Assembly (NCBI GenBank): GCA_030042755.1
Contig: JASHZC010000056.1
Span: 1 to 19,060 of the forward strand
Source of the DNA: Vulcanimicrobiota bacterium
GTDB taxonomy: Bacteria > Eremiobacterota > Eremiobacteria > Baltobacterales > Baltobacteraceae
Direction of reading: 5' to 3'
DNA: 19,060 bases
In this document: piece by piece, positions 33 to 15,976 of the stretch
How positions within the stretch are numbered: position 1 is the first letter of the stretch
How the letters are laid out: the number at the start of each line of letters is the position of its first letter
Made by a program: the position numbers and the translations under genes
Notes under the pieces: generated by a model
What the model saw: the letters and a program-made list of their open reading frames with translations, nothing else
The model's database searches: none
Told to the model about the DNA's origin: nothing

Positions 33-602
33 TTAAGGCTCCTTGGATCCGTTCTCTGGCGGGGCGTGCGTTTGTATGGTCTCGAACGGCTTGCCGTCGG
101 GACCGTAAGGTATCGGTTCGAGGCCGCGCCCATGCAATAAGCGCGAGCTAACCGCGCCGATGCGAATCAAGATGCGGTCGTGCCCGAGCAGCGGAAAGAG
201 CAGCTCGAGCGGCGGGCCTTCCTTCTCTCCGGTGAGCGCCATGCGAACGGCGGCAAACGCGTCGTGCCGCGCGATTCCGAACTCCCGGGCGATTTCAGGA
301 ATGTCGTGCGCGAGGGGCAAGCCTCGCAATTCCGGTTGATGATCGACATACTGCCCGATGGTATCGAGGAAGAACAGTACGCTTCGCGTCCGTAAACGCT
401 CGAGTTCGAGCGCGGGAATCACGCACGACTCCGCACGCAGTCCAGCGATTGGTGCGAAAGCATTGTCGACCGATTCGATCCGATCGCCGTATGCTTCGAT
501 GAAGGTATCGATCCATCGCAGAGCGGCCTCTGGTGCGGGTTCTTCGAGAAACCCCCAGCGCTGCATTGCACGCGCCAAGTCGGAACGGTGCAATTCGCTC
601 AT
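33..602 (-). CDS. Free-standing GluRS-type anticodon-binding domain protein (189 aa)
   Basis: The protein resembles only the C-terminal, all-helical anticodon-binding part of bacterial glutamyl-tRNA synthetase (GltX). The signature is around residues 100-150: the stretch ending VRMALTGEKEGPPLELLFPL followed by LGHDRILIRI corresponds to the GltX C-terminal pattern 'plR.AltG...gP.l.ell..LGke..l.Rl'. No HIGH or KMSKS motif and no Rossmann catalytic domain is present. A normal GltX is about 470-490 residues; this is roughly its last 175. The start is well fixed, because its ATG overlaps the ispF stop (ATGA), so a catalytic half cannot lie directly upstream. It occupies the gltX position in the Firmicutes order yacL-ispD-ispF-gltX. 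It may pair in trans with a truncated catalytic subunit encoded elsewhere, or be a paralogue with another RNA-binding role. Bases 1-32 downstream hold nothing I recognise. Domain identity is fairly sure; function is inference. Confidence 0.75.
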   Translation of the reverse strand: MSELHRSDLARAMQRWGFLEEPAPEAALRWIDTFIEAYGDRIESVDNAFAPIAGLRAESCVIPALELERLRTRSVLFFLDTIGQYVDHQPELRGLPLAHDIPEIAREFGIARHDAFAAVRMALTGEKEGPPLELLFPLLGHDRILIRIGAVSSRLLHGRGLEPIPYGPDGKPFETIQTHAPPENGSKEP

Positions 603-1072
603 CGTTCGATCGACGCCACGGCGAACGCGGCGATCCCACTGCCGTCTCCGGTATAACCCATGCCCTCGCTCGTCTTCGCCTTAACGCTGACGTATTCGAG
701 AGCCAAACCTAAGCGATTGGCTAAATGTTCGCGCATCGCGCCGATGTACGGCGCGAGCTTGGGCCGCTCGACCACGATCGTTGCGTCGATGTTCGCGATG
801 CGGTAGCCGCTCTGCCGGACGCGTGCCGCGCACGCTTCCAACAATACGATCGAATCGGCGTCCTTCCACTGCGGATCGCTATCGGGAAAGTGCCCGCCGA
901 GATCGCCGAGAGCGGCCGCGCCGAGCAACGCGTCGGAAATGGCGTGCGCCAGCACATCGGCGTCGGAGTGTCCGAGAGCTCCGCGTTCGTGAGGAATGGC
1001 GATGCCTCCCAAGATCAATCGACGGCCTTCTACCAAGCGATGCGCGTCGAAACCGTGACCGACGCGCGTCAT
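599..1072 (-). CDS. ispF: 2-C-methyl-D-erythritol 2,4-cyclodiphosphate synthase
   Basis: This is the cytosolic MEP-pathway enzyme that cyclises CDP-methylerythritol 2-phosphate to MEcPP with release of CMP. At 157 residues it has the normal family length. The N-terminus RVGHGFDAHRL carries the metal ligands Asp9 and His11, and His43 in the GHSDADVLAHA segment is the third ligand. The GDLGGHFPDSD loop and the C-terminal KAKTSEGMGYTGDGSGIAAF signature (CDP-binding Thr/Glu region) are intact. Its ATG overlaps the ispD stop by four bases, and its own stop overlaps the start of the GluRS-domain gene, so the three should be translationally coupled. IspD and IspF catalyse nearly consecutive steps (IspE lies between them and is not in the window). 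In some bacteria the two are fused; here they are separate. Identification is secure. Confidence 0.97.
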   Translation of the reverse strand: MTRVGHGFDAHRLVEGRRLILGGIAIPHERGALGHSDADVLAHAISDALLGAAALGDLGGHFPDSDPQWKDADSIVLLEACAARVRQSGYRIANIDATIVVERPKLAPYIGAMREHLANRLGLALEYVSVKAKTSEGMGYTGDGSGIAAFAVASIER

Positions 1073-1743
1073 CCGAGCAACGCCTCGGCCCGCGCGGCGT
1101 CGTCGGGATGCGTAACTTTGAAATTCTCGCCGCTCGAAGGGACGATCGCAACCTCAACGCCGATCGCCTCGAGCAATGCAACGTCGTCGGTCGCGTCGAG
1201 CCCGGCCCGCTCCGCGTGCTCGTGTGCGCGAATCATCTCGTCTCGCATCGCAAATTGAGGCGTCTGCGCGGCCCATAGCTCTGCGCGGTCGAGCGTATGA
1301 CGCACGAGCATCGTGCGCGGATCGACGACCTTGATCGTGTCGACGACGGGCGCGGCCAACACGGCCGCACGCCCCGTGCGGACTTCGCGCATGCCCGCAC
1401 GCACGTCTTGCGGACGAACGAGTGGACGCGCGCCGTCGTGCACGAGAACCGCGTCGCATTCGATTCCGAGCGCCGCAAGCCCGCATCGCACGCTCGCCTG
1501 TCGCGTCGGGCCGCCGGCAACGACCGTCGTAGCCTGCTGCGACGCAAGGTTTCGAGCAAGAATGCTCATTGCGTCGATCCACTCGGGTTCCGTCACGATG
1601 GCGATTTCGGCAATCTCGTCCATCGACGCAAATGCGGCGAGAGACCACGCCAGCATCGGCCTGCCCCGTAATTCGACCAACTGTTTAGGACGCCCAAAAC
1701 GCGTTCCGCGTCCGGCAGCGACGATAATCGCGGCCCAATTCAT
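1069..1743 (-). CDS. ispD: 2-C-methyl-D-erythritol 4-phosphate cytidylyltransferase
   Basis: IspD couples CTP and methylerythritol 4-phosphate to give CDP-methylerythritol, an early MEP-pathway step. The 224-residue protein has the nucleotidyltransferase N-terminus AAIIVAAGRGTRFGRPKQL (Arg15 and Lys20 region), the metal-binding VHDGARPLV motif, the WAAQTPQ segment and the C-terminal GENFKVTHPDD signature. The glycine-rich loop is about two residues shorter than in the E. coli enzyme, but the PKQ that follows is intact. The ATG overlaps the yacL stop (ATGA), and the ispD stop overlaps the ispF start in the same way. This places it inside a tightly coupled yacL-ispD-ispF-gltX-like string, the same order as in Bacillus. 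A MobA- or CMP-sugar-type transferase is unlikely given the full C-terminal signature and the ispF neighbour. Confidence 0.96.
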   Translation of the reverse strand: MNWAAIIVAAGRGTRFGRPKQLVELRGRPMLAWSLAAFASMDEIAEIAIVTEPEWIDAMSILARNLASQQATTVVAGGPTRQASVRCGLAALGIECDAVLVHDGARPLVRPQDVRAGMREVRTGRAAVLAAPVVDTIKVVDPRTMLVRHTLDRAELWAAQTPQFAMRDEMIRAHEHAERAGLDATDDVALLEAIGVEVAIVPSSGENFKVTHPDDAARAEALLG

Positions 1744-2834
1744 CGCGCGACCGGGCTGGCTGACTTCGCTCGCGCGAAAATCATCTTCCCCGCAACGGTC
1801 TGCAATACGCTCGTAACGATGACGTCGGCCTGCGCTCCAACCAGTCTGCGCCCATGCTCGACCACGATCATCGTGCCGTCATCGAGATACGCAACGCCCT
1901 GATCGGGTTCCTTACCCTCGCGAATCACGTGCACGTGCAATTCTTCGCCCGGAAGTACGACCGGTTTGAGGGAATTTGCCAGTTCGTTGATGTTGAGGAC
2001 CTCGACACCTTCGACTTGCGCAACGCGATTGAGATTGTAATCGTTGGTGAGCAATCGGCCTCGCAGTTCGCGCGCGAGACGAACGAGTTTCGCGTCAACG
2101 TTCCCGGGCGTAAGGTCGTCATATTCGCGTTCGTAGATTTCGATCGCGCGCAGCTCCTGGAGCTTGGCAAGGGTCTCGAGTCCGCGACGTCCACGCGTAC
2201 GCCGTTGAGCGTCGGCCGAATCGGCGATCGTCTGCAGCTCGCGCAGCACGAAACGCGGAACGATGAGCGTGCCTTCAACGAAGCCACTCTGCACGATCTC
2301 GACGATTCGTCCATCAACGATGACCGACGTGTCGACCAGCTTAGCGCTGGCGCTGTGCGGACCGAGACTCTTGGGAAGCGGAACGAGCGGAGACTTCGCG
2401 CCAACGCGCGCGCCGAGGTACGCGAAGAAGATCGTGACGATCAGATACAGCACGATTGCCAGATAGCTGCCCGCCCGCCCGGTGACGGAGACAAACTCGA
2501 AAAGAATGCTCTTGAGAAGCAGTGCGATGCCGAGGCCGACGAGCAGCCCAATGGCTCCACCCGCTAATTCGGCCGGGGCCAAGCGTTCGATCGCGCGTTC
2601 GACGACGTTGAGTTCGTCCTCGAAGAACGACTGCGCGAGCGGGGCGAGGAGCACACCGATCAAGGCGCCGACGACCGGCGAGAGGATCAGCATCGTCCAT
2701 TGTAACCCCTCGCTCGCGAAATGCAGCGAGAGAACGTTGACGTAGACTTCGCGTCCCAGCAGAAAGCCCGTAATGAAGAACACGATGGCGAAGACCGTGC
2801 GCAGGACCGTTCCGGACAAATTACTCGTGGTCAT
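1740..2834 (-). CDS. YacL-type membrane PIN-TRAM domain protein
   Basis: This 364-residue protein has four predicted membrane helices in the first ~145 residues (about 11-33, 45-68, 90-112 and 123-146). A cytoplasmic PIN nuclease-like domain follows at about 163-285, then a TRAM RNA-binding domain at about 288-352. The PIN acidic residues are all present: Asp168 in KLVDTS, Glu199 in FVLREL, Asp247 in NVDAKL and Asp265 in LLTNDYN. Family members (B. subtilis YacL) are commonly annotated as putative membrane-bound RNases; activity is expected from the intact acidic set but not demonstrated by sequence. The gene precedes ispD exactly as in Bacillus and related genomes. Its ATG lies 14 bases inside the 3' end of hemW, and its stop overlaps the ispD start. 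Identification is strong; substrate unknown. Confidence 0.9.
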   Translation of the reverse strand: MTTSNLSGTVLRTVFAIVFFITGFLLGREVYVNVLSLHFASEGLQWTMLILSPVVGALIGVLLAPLAQSFFEDELNVVERAIERLAPAELAGGAIGLLVGLGIALLLKSILFEFVSVTGRAGSYLAIVLYLIVTIFFAYLGARVGAKSPLVPLPKSLGPHSASAKLVDTSVIVDGRIVEIVQSGFVEGTLIVPRFVLRELQTIADSADAQRRTRGRRGLETLAKLQELRAIEIYEREYDDLTPGNVDAKLVRLARELRGRLLTNDYNLNRVAQVEGVEVLNINELANSLKPVVLPGEELHVHVIREGKEPDQGVAYLDDGTMIVVEHGRRLVGAQADVIVTSVLQTVAGKMIFARAKSASPVAR

Positions 2835-3960
2835 GGAATGTTACAAACGCTCCGCACACCTCGTTCGCGACGAACCGCCCTCGTCTTGTTAATCTGAGCG
2901 CGTCGCCGGTGCGCTCGAGCAGGCCGTCGCTTTCGAACTTGGCAACGACCGGCGCGTACCGCGCGGCGACGTCGACGCCGTATCGCTCTTTGAACTCGGT
3001 CAGAACAACCCCTTGCGCCGTGCGTAGTGCCAGCATTACCGCTTCCCCTACCGCGCGCAGGCCCTCCAAACGTTCGGCCTCGCCCGGGATCGGAAGCCCC
3101 CCGGCAGCCGCGAGTACGTAGTCGTCGAGCTTGCGCGTATGGCTGCTCCGTTCGCCGTTACGATACGAGGCTGCGCCGACGCCGAATCCCGCGTACTCAC
3201 CGTTTTTCCAATAATTTTCATTGTGAGCGCAACGGTGACCGGGACGCGCAAAATTGCTGATCTCGTAGTGTTCGTATCCCGCGCCCTCCAGGGAGGCAAT
3301 TGCGACATCGTAGAGTTCCGCCTCGAGGTCCTCGCTTGCGAAAGCCGACGGCTCGCGCTCGCGCCACGTTTCGAACGGCGTGCCTTCTTCTATAGTCAAT
3401 CCGTAGGTCGAGATGTGATCGACGCCGAGTTCGATCGCCATGTCGAGCGAGCGCTGCCAAGAATTCACCGTCTGGCCCGGGACGCCGAACATCAAATCGA
3501 CGGACACGGATCGAATCCCCGCGCGCCGCGCAAGTGCGACCGCTCGCGCGACGTCGGGCATCGTGTGACGGCGCCCGAGGGTTGCGATCTCGTCGCGCAC
3601 GAACGACTGCACGCCGATCGACGCCCGATCGATTCCGACCGCAACGTACTGCGTAAAATCGTCGTCGCGAACTAATTCCGGATTGAGCTCGATCGAAATT
3701 TCCCTTCGCGCGCCGATCGGCGGAAATCGCTCGCGCAACACCCGCGTCAGCGAACCGATTTCCTCCGCGCCGTAGGCGTTGGGCGTGCCTCCACCATAGA
3801 AAATCGTCGCCGCCGGTTCGGGCAAAGCCGTAGCAATCTCCGCCTGCAACGCGTCGAGGTATTGCGCGGCGCGCGTCTTGGCCATCGGCCACTTTGCAAA
3901 ATCGCAGTACGGACAGATATACGGACAGAACGGAAGATGGACGTAGATTCCGAGGGGCAC
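2821..3960 (-). CDS. hemW: Radical SAM heme chaperone HemW
   Basis: HemW is a radical-SAM-family protein that binds heme and is thought to deliver it to membrane proteins; it is often misannotated as oxygen-independent coproporphyrinogen oxidase. From the chosen GTG start the protein is 379 residues, the family length. It opens VPLGIYVHLPFCPYICPYCD, giving the cluster cysteines Cys12, Cys16 and Cys19. The residue two after Cys19 is Phe rather than the extra Cys of true HemN, which supports HemW. The SAM-binding IFYGGGTPNAY follows at about 53-63, and a HemN_C-like winged-helix end is present. The frame stays open upstream to 4587, but that part lies inside fakB and is an antisense-style artefact. 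An AGAGG ribosome site sits five bases before the GTG at 3960. It lies 23 bases downstream of fakB and overlaps yacL by 14 bases. Confidence 0.93.
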   Translation of the reverse strand: MPLGIYVHLPFCPYICPYCDFAKWPMAKTRAAQYLDALQAEIATALPEPAATIFYGGGTPNAYGAEEIGSLTRVLRERFPPIGARREISIELNPELVRDDDFTQYVAVGIDRASIGVQSFVRDEIATLGRRHTMPDVARAVALARRAGIRSVSVDLMFGVPGQTVNSWQRSLDMAIELGVDHISTYGLTIEEGTPFETWREREPSAFASEDLEAELYDVAIASLEGAGYEHYEISNFARPGHRCAHNENYWKNGEYAGFGVGAASYRNGERSSHTRKLDDYVLAAAGGLPIPGEAERLEGLRAVGEAVMLALRTAQGVVLTEFKERYGVDVAARYAPVVAKFESDGLLERTGDALRLTRRGRFVANEVCGAFVTFHDHE

Positions 3961-3983
3961 ATCGACCTCTATCCTAAGAGAGA

Positions 3984-4838
3984 CTACGCGTCTTGCGCGA
4001 CAAAAATCCCAACGGCGCCCGGGCCTCCATGCGTCGCGATGACCGGCCCTGCTTCGAGAATGTCGAGCATCCGCGGCTGCACGCCATCCAGCTTCGCGCG
4101 TAGTTTTTCGAGCGCATCTTGCGCGAGTTGCGGAGCATTGGTGTGCATCACCAAAAACCGCGCCTTGGCGGGGTCGGAAACTGCCGCCCACGCAAGATCC
4201 AGCATCGTCGCTTGCGCGCGGGCGAACGTTCGAACTTGGGCTTCGGCTACGACCTGACCATCCTTTAGCGCGATCACCGGCACGATCTTCATCAACGTTC
4301 CGAGCACCGCTTGCGCTTTTCCAATCCGTCCCGTGCGCTGGAGATGCGAAAGGTCGGCGAAGCACGCATAGAGACGCTGCGTGGCGCGCTCGCGATCGAG
4401 TGCGGCGATCACCTCGTCCCAGCTGCCGCCTGCAGCCATAACTTCTTGCGCGCGAAGCACCATCATACCGAGTCCACCGGCGGCGCTTTGCGAGTCGTAA
4501 ATTTCGATCTTCGCTCCCGGAAAATTCTGCGCGGCCGTGCGTGCGGAATTGATCGTTCCCGAAAGATACGACGAGATCGTGATGCACAAGATATCGTGTC
4601 CGGCTTCCACCAGCGGCGCGAACGCTTCTTCGAACATTCGCGCGGTCGGCTGCGACGTGGTCGGGAGCGCGCTCTCGGTTTCGAGCAGTTCGAAAAACTG
4701 CCGGCGCGTCAAATCGACGTTGTCGCGATAACTACGATCGCCGAAGACGACGAAGAGAGGTACGATCGTGATGCCGAGCGACGCAGCCCGCTGCGGGTCG
4801 AGATCCGACGTGCTGTCGGTAACGATGGCGATCGACAA
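3984..4838 (-). CDS. fakB: DegV family fatty-acid-binding protein (FakB-like)
   Basis: DegV/FakB proteins hold a fatty acid or acyl-phosphate in a buried cavity. They present it to the kinase FakA and pass the acyl-phosphate to PlsX/PlsY. The 284-residue length is typical. Family motifs are visible: IAIVTDSTSDL at the N-terminus, TSQPTARMFEEAF near 61-73, CITISSYLSGTINSAR near 85-100, and ATHGGPGAVGIF near the C-terminus. The start is TTG at 4836-4838; the codon directly before it is the in-frame plsX stop TGA, so no earlier start is possible. plsX and this gene therefore share one reading frame with a single stop between them and no intergenic base. Adjacency to fakA and plsX makes the fatty-acid role much likelier than for an orphan DegV. 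Confidence 0.93.
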   Translation of the reverse strand: MSIAIVTDSTSDLDPQRAASLGITIVPLFVVFGDRSYRDNVDLTRRQFFELLETESALPTTSQPTARMFEEAFAPLVEAGHDILCITISSYLSGTINSARTAAQNFPGAKIEIYDSQSAAGGLGMMVLRAQEVMAAGGSWDEVIAALDRERATQRLYACFADLSHLQRTGRIGKAQAVLGTLMKIVPVIALKDGQVVAEAQVRTFARAQATMLDLAWAAVSDPAKARFLVMHTNAPQLAQDALEKLRAKLDGVQPRMLDILEAGPVIATHGGPGAVGIFVAQDA

Positions 4839-7802: not shown

Positions 7803-8216
7803 CTACTCCAACACCGCCAGATCGTTAAGGAGCCGCGTAATCTCTTCGGGCTCTAGCGTAATCATGTATTCCAGTCGCACGTGCGAGCGCTCGATGCTCT
7901 TGAGCCCTACGGCGCAGAGCACCGGCCCCCGGCGACTTGGCGCGAACGAAAGATCGAACATCCCGCCAGAAAGAGAAAAGCTTCCCGCCGGCCCGTTTCC
8001 CGAATTGATCTGCGAGAGGTAGGCGCCCACCGAGCGTAACTCCTCGACGCGAATCGAAACCGGAAACGTCGCATCGACGGGCGGCGCGATCGCGCGAACG
8101 AAGCAGTCGAGCAGATCCATCCCTTCGGGCTCGGCTACCTCAGGATGAACGTATCCCGCAATCTGAATGGTGACAGATGGTTCGGTCTCGCCGATGCGGA
8201 TCGTTTGAGGGATCAT
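7803..8216 (-). CDS. Hypothetical protein, 137 aa, unrecognised
   Basis: I do not recognise this family with confidence. The protein has no signal peptide, membrane helix, cysteine cluster or nucleotide-binding motif. It reads as alternating short strands (for example SVTIQIAGYV, FPVSIRVEEL, GSFSLSGGMFDLSF, PVLCAVGL, VRLEYMITLE) ending in a short helix EEITRLLNDL, suggesting a small beta-rich cytoplasmic fold. The strand-helix rhythm loosely recalls WapI-type immunity proteins, but this is a weak impression. ATG at 8214-8216 is preceded by an AAAGGGG ribosome site five bases upstream, and it starts ten bases after the stop of the PdxK-like kinase gene, so it is probably the last gene of that operon. 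Its stop nearly touches that of convergent rpmB. Codon use and GC look like the neighbours, so I believe it is real. Confidence 0.7.
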   Translation of the reverse strand: MIPQTIRIGETEPSVTIQIAGYVHPEVAEPEGMDLLDCFVRAIAPPVDATFPVSIRVEELRSVGAYLSQINSGNGPAGSFSLSGGMFDLSFAPSRRGPVLCAVGLKSIERSHVRLEYMITLEPEEITRLLNDLAVLE

Positions 8217-12694: not shown

Positions 12695-15600
12695 TTACCC
12701 GTACGGGCCAATGATCCAGGTTGGCAGCCACATCCGCTCGTGCCATTCATTCCAGGTGATCGGTATGGACGCCAAAATCGGATAAAAGAATATGAACGCC
12801 GAGCCGATCAGCACGACGGTCGCGACGACTCCCGCCATCGCCCAGCGGCGTGCACCGACGTCCGCGTCTTTGAATCGCAACCAAAGCTGCTGCAAGATGA
12901 TGGCGTTACACAGACAGATGAGCGGTATGTCGACGTAGAAATGGTAGGCGAACGTGATGCGCGGCGACCTCATCCAAGGCAGCCACTGCAAGAGGTAGGT
13001 CAAGACGATCAAGGCGTAGGCCTTGTTTTTTCGCCTCCACGCCAGCACGGCAACGATCGGAACGCTCACCAATCCCAGCCACATGTTCAGTGGATTGGGC
13101 ATCGACGTGATTTCCTCGACGCAGCAGCCGTTCGGGTCCTGCTTGTTCGCGCGATGGTCCTCGTAATAATACGCCACCGGAATGTAATCGATCGGCCACT
13201 GGTACCAATACGACGAATACGGATGCTTTGCGACGAGTTTGTCGTGATACTCGAACATCGTGTATTGGCGATACACGACGTCGTTGAAGTTGTGAATCTC
13301 ATTCGGGTCCGGCGAGTGGCGCACCAGATCCGGCACCCAGACCAGTGCGTAAACCGTCGCGCTTATGAAGAGAATCGTCGCCAGCGCTCCGTCGAGCCGA
13401 AAACCGCGCGGGTTGCCCCACAACGCTGGGCCGCGCTCGGCGAAATAGCGCTGCAGCCACACGAAGATCAGAACGCAGAAGCTGACTCCGAAGCCCATGA
13501 CGCCGTACCACTTGGAGCTGACAAGCAGCCCCAGCGCGATCGTGAACACGATCAGCCAAAGCGTGGCCGAGGAGCCTTTCTCGCGCGCATCCCCGACGCG
13601 AATTTCGTTGTTTTCGTATTTCGCCTCGGCCTCGGGCGTCTCGTACGTCACGCTTGGCTCCGGTCGATACGCAATCGAGTACGTATCGCCGGCGTAGACC
13701 AGTGCACCCGCGCGGTTTTGCGACACCGCACCGGCAGTAATTTTAGCCTTGCCGCCGGCGGTTTCGATCCGGCCCCCGTCAAGCGTATAGAGCGTGCGGT
13801 TTGCTCCCCGTACGAGCGCCAGCGAACCCTCCGGAAACGTGTATTCCGTCGCGCCGTCGGCGAACCACCGTGGCAGCAGCCAATAGCGCCAACCAACGTA
13901 TTTCAAGCAGGCAACGTACAGTCCAACGATGACGCTTGAAGCCGCATCGAGATGCCCGGGTGGATGGAAGTGGCTCCAGATCAGGTTCCAAATCAACACC
14001 ACGATGGCGCCCGAAACGATCGATGCTGCTACCGCCGAGGCGAAGGCCCACGGTGGAATCACCGTGTGTGCCCTCATTTCCACCTGCGACGCAATCCAAA
14101 ACCGGTAGAACGCATAAACGGCCGCCAGCGAGAAGACGACGACGAATCCCTCGGGCGTTGCAATGCGCGACTGCACGAAATGCATGCCGTCCGTCATCAA
14201 GAAGAACGCCGCAATCGAGGAGAAGACGATCGAGCCCGTAACGCGTTTGGCAAAGGCATAGAGCAGCATCACGACGATCGCGCCGAACACGACGTCGAGG
14301 AAGCGCCAGCCGAACGAGTTGTCGCCGTGCGCCAGCCCACCGAACATCATCACCGAGAGCGTCACCAGCAGCTTCGAGAATGGCGGGTGCGTATTCTCGT
14401 AGATCCGCATGTTGCGGAGATATTCTTCGGCTGCACGCGCAAAATAGATCTCGTCGAAGATCTTGGTAGGGGGATACCAATAACGTATGTATGAGAGCAG
14501 GAAGCTCGCCACGCCGAACACGCTCATGACCAGGTAGTCGAGCGCATTCATCACGCTCAAGCCTTCGCGCGGATCGTAGTAGGCGCGCGTTTCGTAGGCT
14601 TGAGGTACATCGCGCTCGTCGCGCTCGATCTTTTGCTCGCGCCGCGACACTGCTTCGGCCGGCTCTGGCGCAGATCCGAGATAGGTATAGCCTAAAACGA
14701 AGAACGTGCCGACGGCAATCAACGCGTAGAAGTGCGTGAGCGCTCCCCACATGTTGTACGCGTCAACCCCCGGCGTCGGATGGTTCACGAAAGCGAGATA
14801 CTGCAGCGAATAGACGAGGTTGGCGAAGAGCACCACGGTGAGGGCAATCGCTCCCCAGAGATAGCGGCGCGCGATCGGGATGCACGCGATGCAGAACGTG
14901 ACCGCATCAAAGCTATAGCGTTCGTGCATCCGCGTCGAGAGAATGAAGAACGCAAGCAATGAAAGCGTGGCGGCCTCCATCAGGGCCGCATTGGTGCGCT
15001 CTTGCAAATAGCGCCACACGATCAGCGCGACTGCAGCTACCAGCAATGCGATGCCCCACGCGTACTGCGGAAACTGCACTCCCCAGAAGCCGATCGACAG
15101 AGCGTCCTTCTGCCACATCTCTCCCTTGATCGCCCACAGGTTGAATGCGTTCACGGAATTGTCGGGGTAGACGCTCGAGCCAAACTCGTAGCGTTGGAGC
15201 AGCCATTGAAGCGCCGCGATTGGATTCGCCGTGGGATGGAACGGCAGCACGATCAGGATCGTGAAGACGATCGACGCCGCAATACCGATTGCAGTGGCAA
15301 TCAATCGGTCGCGCAGTCGCGAGCGATCGGCGAAGGCGAACGCAACCATGAGCGCGATCAACACCGACGCTTGAGGTTTGATCAGCAGCGAGTACGCGAG
15401 GGTGACCCAGGCAGCGGGGATGTAGCGCGAGATCCGCCCGGGCGCCTCATCGGTGCTCTTTAAGAGGAAGTAGAATGCCAGCAATGCCAGTCCGGCAGCG
15501 ATCGAGTCGACTTGGCCCCAATCCGCCGACGTCATGATCGTAGCCGGGTTCAAAATGTAGATCGCCGCCGCGCCCAGCGCAATTGCCGGTTTGGCGAACC

Positions 15601-15976
15601 GCAGTCCGATCGCGTAGATGAGCGCGCCTACGCCCAGATCCGCGAGCACGGCCGGCAACTTGACGACGACGCGGAGTAATGCATATTGCGGATCTAGAGC
15701 ACGGAACGGGGCCCACAAATGGCCGAAGATGGCGAGAATGTAGAAATAGCCCGGCGGATAATCGGCAAAACTCGTCTTGTCGTAGAAATGCGTGAGGCCG
15801 TTGCTCAGCAACGAAAGCGTCCACGCGACGAAGGTGTTGATATCGACCGTGAAGCCGCTCGAGCCAATGAACAGCACGCGAAGCGCGAACCCGCCGAGCA
15901 GCAGGATCGGAAGCGCAATCGGGAGCGTGAGCGTGCGCTCCCAGACGGACGTTTGGACGTTCGTCCTGGCGTTCAC
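12695..15976 (-). CDS. Tandem GT-C glycosyltransferase fusion (Gpi18-like + PMT/GT39-like)
   Basis: This 1093-residue polytopic membrane protein joins two GT-C modules. Module 1 (about 15-435) resembles Gpi18-like/DUF2029-type mannosyltransferases: TVDINTFVAW (putative catalytic Asp45), DYPPGYFYIL (72-81), SADWGQVDSIAAG and STRMHERYSF (347-356). A charged cytosolic-looking linker (435-475) follows. Module 2 (about 480-1093) resembles protein O-mannosyltransferases (GT39): IFDEIYFARAAEEYL with the acidic pair Asp508-Glu509, ENTHPPFSKLLV (527-538), and the four-helix PMT C-terminal region. A soluble, beta-rich insertion of about 100 residues (roughly 703-803) interrupts module 2. Both would use a polyprenyl-phosphate sugar on the outer face. 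The GTG start at 15974-15976 has GGAGG eleven bases upstream. The neighbouring prenyl synthase may supply the lipid carrier. Sugar and acceptor are unknown. Confidence 0.88.
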   Translation of the reverse strand: MNARTNVQTSVWERTLTLPIALPILLLGGFALRVLFIGSSGFTVDINTFVAWTLSLLSNGLTHFYDKTSFADYPPGYFYILAIFGHLWAPFRALDPQYALLRVVVKLPAVLADLGVGALIYAIGLRFAKPAIALGAAAIYILNPATIMTSADWGQVDSIAAGLALLAFYFLLKSTDEAPGRISRYIPAAWVTLAYSLLIKPQASVLIALMVAFAFADRSRLRDRLIATAIGIAASIVFTILIVLPFHPTANPIAALQWLLQRYEFGSSVYPDNSVNAFNLWAIKGEMWQKDALSIGFWGVQFPQYAWGIALLVAAVALIVWRYLQERTNAALMEAATLSLLAFFILSTRMHERYSFDAVTFCIACIPIARRYLWGAIALTVVLFANLVYSLQYLAFVNHPTPGVDAYNMWGALTHFYALIAVGTFFVLGYTYLGSAPEPAEAVSRREQKIERDERDVPQAYETRAYYDPREGLSVMNALDYLVMSVFGVASFLLSYIRYWYPPTKIFDEIYFARAAEEYLRNMRIYENTHPPFSKLLVTLSVMMFGGLAHGDNSFGWRFLDVVFGAIVVMLLYAFAKRVTGSIVFSSIAAFFLMTDGMHFVQSRIATPEGFVVVFSLAAVYAFYRFWIASQVEMRAHTVIPPWAFASAVAASIVSGAIVVLIWNLIWSHFHPPGHLDAASSVIVGLYVACLKYVGWRYWLLPRWFADGATEYTFPEGSLALVRGANRTLYTLDGGRIETAGGKAKITAGAVSQNRAGALVYAGDTYSIAYRPEPSVTYETPEAEAKYENNEIRVGDAREKGSSATLWLIVFTIALGLLVSSKWYGVMGFGVSFCVLIFVWLQRYFAERGPALWGNPRGFRLDGALATILFISATVYALVWVPDLVRHSPDPNEIHNFNDVVYRQYTMFEYHDKLVAKHPYSSYWYQWPIDYIPVAYYYEDHRANKQDPNGCCVEEITSMPNPLNMWLGLVSVPIVAVLAWRRKNKAYALIVLTYLLQWLPWMRSPRITFAYHFYVDIPLICLCNAIILQQLWLRFKDADVGARRWAMAGVVATVVLIGSAFIFFYPILASIPITWNEWHERMWLPTWIIGPYG

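Follow-up and report, generated by a model that had tools for sequence, protein, structure and literature searches.

Synthetase-derived proteins without catalytic function are already known. According to the excerpted text of its report (PMC7237682), vertebrate DALRD3 carries an ArgRS-type DALR domain without a synthetase motif and brings tRNA-Arg to METTL2, and a duplicate synthetase that lost catalysis is one of two origins considered possible by the authors. It shares with the anticodon-binding domain (ABD) protein described here a class I synthetase anticodon-binding domain without catalytic motif, but, as far as that text goes, it differs in the synthetase and the host, in an added N-terminal part and in having METTL2 as partner. 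In the sections of PMC3927822 used here, GluRS2 of Thermotoga maritima is a second GluRS reported to charge neither tRNA-Glu nor tRNA-Gln; it keeps its catalytic domain, whereas the catalytic domain of the second GluRS (GltX2) considered here is degenerate or deleted. YadB (Glu-Q-RS) is, in the available text of PMC9437257 and PMC3927822, a GluRS paralogue cut to one domain like the ABD-only protein, but as its mirror image, with the catalytic domain kept and the ABD missing. Fragments of synthetases, some of them ABD parts, appear in the consulted portion of PMC7564348 as species-specific features of Arabidopsis. A free-standing bacterial GluRS ABD was not found in the open-access literature searched.

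The ABD of bacterial GluRS (GltX; PF19269) resembles the protein described here in fold, sequence family, gene position and a GPPL-type loop. The latter differs from it by the lack of a catalytic domain and by an extra conserved tail, and is far from the ABD of the main GluRS (GltX1) of the same genomes. The intermediates at this locus are unusually complete: several steps in the loss of catalysis by a synthetase, with the tRNA-facing domain kept, coexist at one locus in one phylum and accompany an apparent change of the main GluRS. Thus, whether such reduced synthetases persist as relics or act as tRNA-targeting factors or regulators can be tested directly in this phylum, which would also give a bacterial example of an anticodon-binding domain living independently.

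A stand-alone GluRS-type ABD gene next to ispF

The window, by which we mean the whole stretch of 19,060 nucleotides of Vulcanimicrobiota DNA that was analysed, contains the following features at and around the gene:

33..602, minus strand: gene for a stand-alone GluRS-type ABD protein, very probably a gltX2 remnant; 189 aa, with PF19269, GluRS fold matches of the AlphaFold model and orthologues in the same gene order
75..152, minus strand: tail of residues 151-176, outside the GluRS domain and conserved, with the family pattern V.SRLLHGRGL.PI..GPDGKPFE.I and a mean majority frequency of 0.91
204..245, minus strand: residues 120-133 (RMALTGEKEGPPLE), a segment in gap-free alignment with R435 to F448 of Thermus thermophilus GluRS
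599..602, minus strand: ATGA, in which the ATG that starts the ABD gene overlaps the TGA that ends ispF
599..1072, minus strand: ispF (PF02542)
1069..1743, minus strand: ispD (PF01128)
1740..2834, minus strand: PIN-TRAM membrane protein of the YacL type (PF01850 and PF01938)

The PIN-TRAM protein gene upstream of ispD is one that we take to be yacL. Residues 26-149 of the ABD protein matched PF19269 (Anticodon_2) with an E-value of 2.3e-6 and 28.5 bits, compared to a curated cutoff of 23.6. No other Pfam family matched up to E 1, and the catalytic domain PF00749 was absent from the 189 residues. The NCBIfam model gltX_bact gave a weak match confined to its end (positions 389-464 of 470). Since PF00749 with its HIGH and KMSKS motifs is missing, the protein is not a GluRS enzyme. 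The gene is probably translationally coupled to ispF by the ATGA overlap, and the same 4-base overlap was present in 21 of 43 measurable ABD-only loci, with start codons chosen mechanically. As the contig ends 32 bases beyond the stop codon, the downstream neighbour is invisible in the window. Neither a tRNA gene nor an Rfam family over its gathering score was detected in the window, and thus no nearby RNA partner was seen.

A protein search with the 189-aa query retrieved 1090 relatives at E 1e-3 from 1303 candidates. This search admits only proteins of about 104-331 aa for such a query, so that full-length relatives could not show up, and all of the 120 relatives listed measured 171-202 aa. 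The number of relatives and the lengths of those listed argue that the gene is no chance truncation. Organism names among these 120 were Candidatus Aquilonibacter (3), which belongs to the phylum Vulcanimicrobiota, Candidatus Baltobacteraceae (2) and 'bacterium' (1), and 14 loci located in genomes were titled Candidatus Eremiobacterota in 13 cases and 'bacterium' in one. Within the phylum, 83 of 149 genomes matched, 67 strongly (E 1.7e-61 or better) and 16 more weakly, the latter mostly with divergent full-length frames.

An earlier note, made from the DNA letters, had proposed a GluRS anticodon-binding domain encoded alone at the gltX position, starting in an ATGA overlap with ispF and not being a truncated read of a full gene. 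All of this is confirmed: the score lies above the Pfam cutoff and the model matches GluRS folds, relatives carry a full gltX2 at exactly this position, and the overlap is in place. Against truncation speak the 1090 relatives and the absence of a catalytic domain from 45 inspected ABD-only loci (partial in the case of G009; see below). The note also asked whether the split is conserved in related genomes; the ABD alone is present in 57 genomes of the phylum. Beyond the earlier note, the domain very probably derives from a second GluRS of which degenerate intermediates survive in relatives.

Predicted structure and the putative anticodon-contact segment

The AlphaFold model of the ABD protein (mean pLDDT 87.9, pTM 0.82) is predicted to adopt the all-helical fold of the GluRS C-terminus. 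In Foldseek searches followed by re-alignment, the model resembled GluRS C-terminal domains from residue 1 to about residue 159, with most matches ending near residue 160. All of the first 39 Foldseek rows were GluRS, one row alone having an E-value below 0.001. Re-alignment with VIA-align was a second look at these same matches, and families outside the Foldseek list could still match. The tail is mostly outside the structural matches, yet its conservation equals that of the core (0.91).

The family profile aligned without gaps, albeit weakly (E 0.05), to residues 403-463 of Thermus GluRS; the best chain in the same search was 8jpv (E 0.0011). In this alignment, R120, P130 and L132 correspond to Thermus R435, P445 and L447 and are invariant in 31 aligned relatives. 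The R435-F448 region of the Thermus enzyme presumably contacts the anticodon. At the position equivalent to R120, the GltX1 of G002, G081 and G112 has a tyrosine and the divergent GltX1 of G123 an arginine, as judged by eye. The conservation of these three residues favours recognition of the tRNA-Glu/Gln anticodon in trans, as far as can be judged from an alignment. The acidity of the domain does not favour a lone RNA binder: the mean net charge was -8.4 over 54 rows of ABD-only, degenerate and intact proteins, compared to +1.6 over 38 GltX1 ABDs. In G101 and G007, however, the full GltX2 has an equally acidic C-terminal part (-8 each); the values for basal GltX2 range from -6 to +1.

Four states of the locus

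We compared 60 fetched stretches with the loci L001-L014 and the window, using marker genes from the window and from genome G007. The gene order hemW-yacL-ispD-ispF-X-cysE-cysS was recurrent, with position X in four states. In the first state, X is a full gltX2. The gene of G101 has the motifs SPTGQTHVGG and KLSKRH and the same kind of ABD and tail as the window protein, and that of G007 was pieced together from two abutting contigs, L029 with ispD-ispF and the N-terminal part of GltX2 and L007 with the rest followed by cysE and cysS. In basal genomes, G043, G045, G086 and G048 among them, gltX2 is also full, and its ABD is more divergent.

In the second state, found in eight genomes (G120-G125, G127 and G129), a well kept ABD is joined to a degenerate catalytic domain. 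None of the eight has an unaltered KLSKR motif: KLS is kept and the following KR changed in G122, G124, G127 and G129, and the motif is gone in G120, G121, G123 and G125. The HVG of the HIGH motif is kept in six and lost in G121 and G123. An insert, CYC..SGRC, is missing from all eight. The gltX2 of G086 (L162) also has no such insert and keeps both HIGH and KLSKR, so that loss of the insert alone is weak evidence of decay. Judged by their motifs, the degenerate GltX2 proteins would be catalytically inactive.

The third state, with the ABD alone as in the window, was present in 57 of the 67 strongly matching genomes. No GltX catalytic domain was found beside the ABD in the 45 such loci inspected, the upstream side being off the contig in G009; for the remaining 12, frame length and the positions of PF00749 served as the sole criteria. 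For the fourth state, 18 chosen genomes of the 66 without a match were inspected; they showed ispF followed by cysE, with no ABD match at E 0.1 between the two. The gap was shorter than 200 bases in 16 of them, 476 bases in G054 and 1.39 kb in G052. The absence of the gene from these 18 means that it is not essential throughout the phylum.

Trees were obtained from quick IQ-TREE runs with SH-aLRT support only, and G083, whose ABD lies over two frames, was used neither in the ABD tree nor in the ABD rate counts. The ABD tree requires three changes for the ABD-only state, only one of which is forced by starred branches.

Several loci showed irregularities. The ABD part of the otherwise motif-complete gltX2 of G083 (L121) is split over two reading frames; either decay or a sequencing error has thus disrupted the frame. 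In G119 (L130), a 1023-aa ORF on the opposite strand (1041..4112, minus) lies between ispF and the ABD gene and enters the start of the ABD frame; judged by eye from its ends, it probably encodes a LuxR-type ATPase regulator. About 3 kb separate ispF from the ABD in G126 and G128. The GltX2 of G007 (L007 828..1082) continues for about 85 residues past the conserved tail, and that of G101 stops soon after the tail.

The main GluRS of the same genomes

In all 14 orphan-type genomes tested (13 with the ABD alone, and G007 with the fused form), another locus encodes a GltX in which a single frame combines PF00749 (E-values of 4.4e-94 to 4.4e-105) with an ABD of its own (PF19269, 1.2e-20 to 4.5e-30). 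Phylum-wide, PF00749 was detected in 145 and PF19269 in 144 of 149 genomes. PF00749 was not found in G076 and G080, both ABD-only, most simply because these assemblies are incomplete.

In ABD-only and degenerate genomes, GltX1 has a HIGH region of the DPHVGTAY type and a KSKLSKRKNPT-like motif. Of the solved structures, those closest to the G002 enzyme were GluRS from Pseudomonas aeruginosa (640 bits), Moraxella, Chlamydia and Thermus. Where a GltX2 catalytic domain is present, GltX1 is of HVGG or HIGS form with KLSKRDGA-like motifs. The Pseudomonas/Thermus-like type was present in every ABD-only genome that was typed (55 of 57, G076 and G080 being untyped; G087 with L for T; G081 typed from its C-terminal half only) and in all eight degenerate genomes, G123 with a divergent HLGTA form. 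Of the genomes with a retained GltX2 catalytic domain, 14 were typed (11 HVGG, 3 HIGS), and the Pseudomonas/Thermus-like type was present in none of them. This set comprises 16 listed genomes, of which G046, showing only the end of the domain, and G038 are untyped, and G022 and G027 have no isp or cys neighbour within the fetched stretch. From this distribution, it appears that GltX2 was made redundant and lost its catalytic function while its ABD was kept. The association of ABD state and GltX1 type may be a single event, because both are clustered on the tree. In G123 (L261), the HLGTA form is the sole full-length GltX seen and is unlike its neighbours, possibly as the result of a further GltX1 exchange.

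In the catalytic-domain tree, the Pseudomonas/Thermus-like GltX1 (38 rows) and the other GltX1 (7 rows) each form one clade, and the degenerate GltX2 form one clade inside GltX2, with a warning of long branches from the method. According to Dasgupta and Basu (PMC3927822), proteobacteria obtained an H-phi-G-T group of GluRS by horizontal transfer. GltX1 may have been replaced here too, and by horizontal transfer; the GltX1 sequences in the tree all come from the phylum.

Selection on the ABD

Matched-pair rates were determined for the 10 of 44 ABD-only genomes in which all seven pieces were covered to at least 85%, which gave 45 non-independent pairs. The mean identity of the ABD in these pairs was 0.721, compared to 0.709 for IspF, 0.615 for IspD, 0.720 for CysE, 0.675 for CysS, 0.781 for the GltX1 catalytic domain and 0.583 for the GltX1 ABD. 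Pair by pair, the ABD was more identical than IspF in 31, IspD in 44, CysE in 26, CysS in 39, the GltX1 ABD in 43 and the GltX1 catalytic domain in 6 of the 45 pairs. In all 28 pairs among the eight degenerate GltX2, identity was higher in the ABD (0.809) than in the catalytic part (0.643).

The dN/dS of the ABD was 0.05-0.18 in the 11 pairs of closest kin (dN up to 0.10) among 25 pairs listed of 946, and was slightly above that of ispF in 7 of 9 comparable close pairs. The other 14 listed pairs gave values of 0.27-0.45; their proteins differ strongly, yet the apparent dS was 0.60-0.72, a value probably flattened by codon bias. The alignment of 31 rows, 28 of them distinct, has 71 invariant columns. 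The ABD with its conserved tail is under purifying selection; its conservation is comparable to that of the neighbouring enzymes and above that of the GltX1 ABD, which argues that the gene is no relic.

Origin and possible function

The ABD gene is very probably the remnant of a second GluRS. GltX2 would once have filled the place between ispF and cysE, the ABD gene being its surviving C-terminal part. In this lineage, the genome would have acquired a different, Pseudomonas/Thermus-like GltX1; the active site of GltX2 would have decayed next, and the whole catalytic domain would have been lost in most lineages. We infer the order from intact GltX2 through the degenerate form to the ABD alone. 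The ABD and its own conserved tail would then have been retained by purifying selection, as a small non-catalytic accessory protein that may recognise tRNA-Glu, tRNA-Gln or both by the anticodon arm on behalf of another enzyme. We put the probability of this explanation as a whole, a GltX2 remnant kept as a non-catalytic accessory protein directed to tRNA(Glu/Gln), at roughly 0.55. As a synthetase-derived ABD without catalytic domain, the protein resembles DALRD3-like tRNA-targeting factors, among which it would belong if it delivers a specific tRNA to a partner enzyme. Weighing DALRD3 as the nearest functional parallel and the kept segment against the acidity, we prefer a tRNA-directed accessory role, the main rival being a role in protein-protein contacts. 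For the accessory role taken by itself, with the tRNA binding and the partner that it supposes, the odds seem somewhat below even. It is rather doubtful that a stepwise conversion into a targeting factor for tRNA-Glu/Gln, with the role begun while GltX2 was still an enzyme and the tail docking a tRNA-handling partner, made the protein a bacterial counterpart of DALRD3.

The least probable of the readings considered is that of a split GluRS, in which the ABD acts in trans with a catalytic polypeptide that has no ABD of its own. Such a split is possible in principle, and most ABD-only genomes have a single PF00749 gene, but this gene is full length with its own PF19269 in all 14 related genomes, and the split is rejected for these relatives. 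Of the two alternatives in the earlier note, the split enzyme is thereby refuted by kinship, its proposed search for a GltX lacking the C-terminal ABD having returned complete enzymes in related genomes; the other, a full enzyme elsewhere and a domain become independent, is supported by the full GltX1 of relatives. A functionless relic, decaying toward the empty state of other lineages, would agree with the 18 genomes without the gene, the broken frame in G083 and the dN/dS slightly above ispF. We nevertheless reject it as highly improbable on account of the IspF- and CysE-like conservation, the low dN/dS in closest kin, the invariant columns and the occurrence in 57 genomes and 1090 database proteins.

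That the ABD and its tail regulate or scaffold GltX1, GatCAB or the cysE/cysS products without binding tRNA would fit the acidic domain, the strongly conserved extra tail and the recurrent operon position with cysE and cysS. It would leave the kept segment matching Thermus R435-F448 unaccounted for, and GatB occurs with and without the ABD; we regard this role as unlikely, though worth keeping in mind. Another reading has the ABD help GltX1 to charge tRNA-Gln, as genomes without GlnRS need Glu-tRNA-Gln for GatCAB. No GlnRS C-terminal domain was found in the 67 genomes with a strong orphan-type match, and 63 of these have GatB and use the amidotransferase route, as this reading demands. The same GltX1 type, again with no GlnRS match, is however found without the ABD, e.g. 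in G054, G065, G107 and G110. Help with tRNA-Gln charging is therefore not strictly required, and a strict helper of this kind is weakened to an improbable candidate. With regard to a partner for the preferred tRNA-directed accessory protein, co-distribution over the 149 genomes pointed to none: GatB, HemA and MnmA are widespread whether or not the ABD is present, with GatB_N occurring in 134, GlutR_N (HemA) in 131 and the MnmA family, in some cases weakly, in 147 of them.

Other genes in the window

Two further ORFs in the window were recorded. A 137-aa ORF (7803..8216, minus strand) without a Pfam match at E 1e-5 adjoins a Phos_pyr_kin (PF08543) gene. A 1093-aa ORF (12695..15976, minus strand) carries the protein-O-mannosyltransferase domains PF02366 and PF16192 in its C-terminal half, and its long N-terminal half gave no Pfam match at E 1e-5; this ORF possibly encodes a fused glycosyltransferase.
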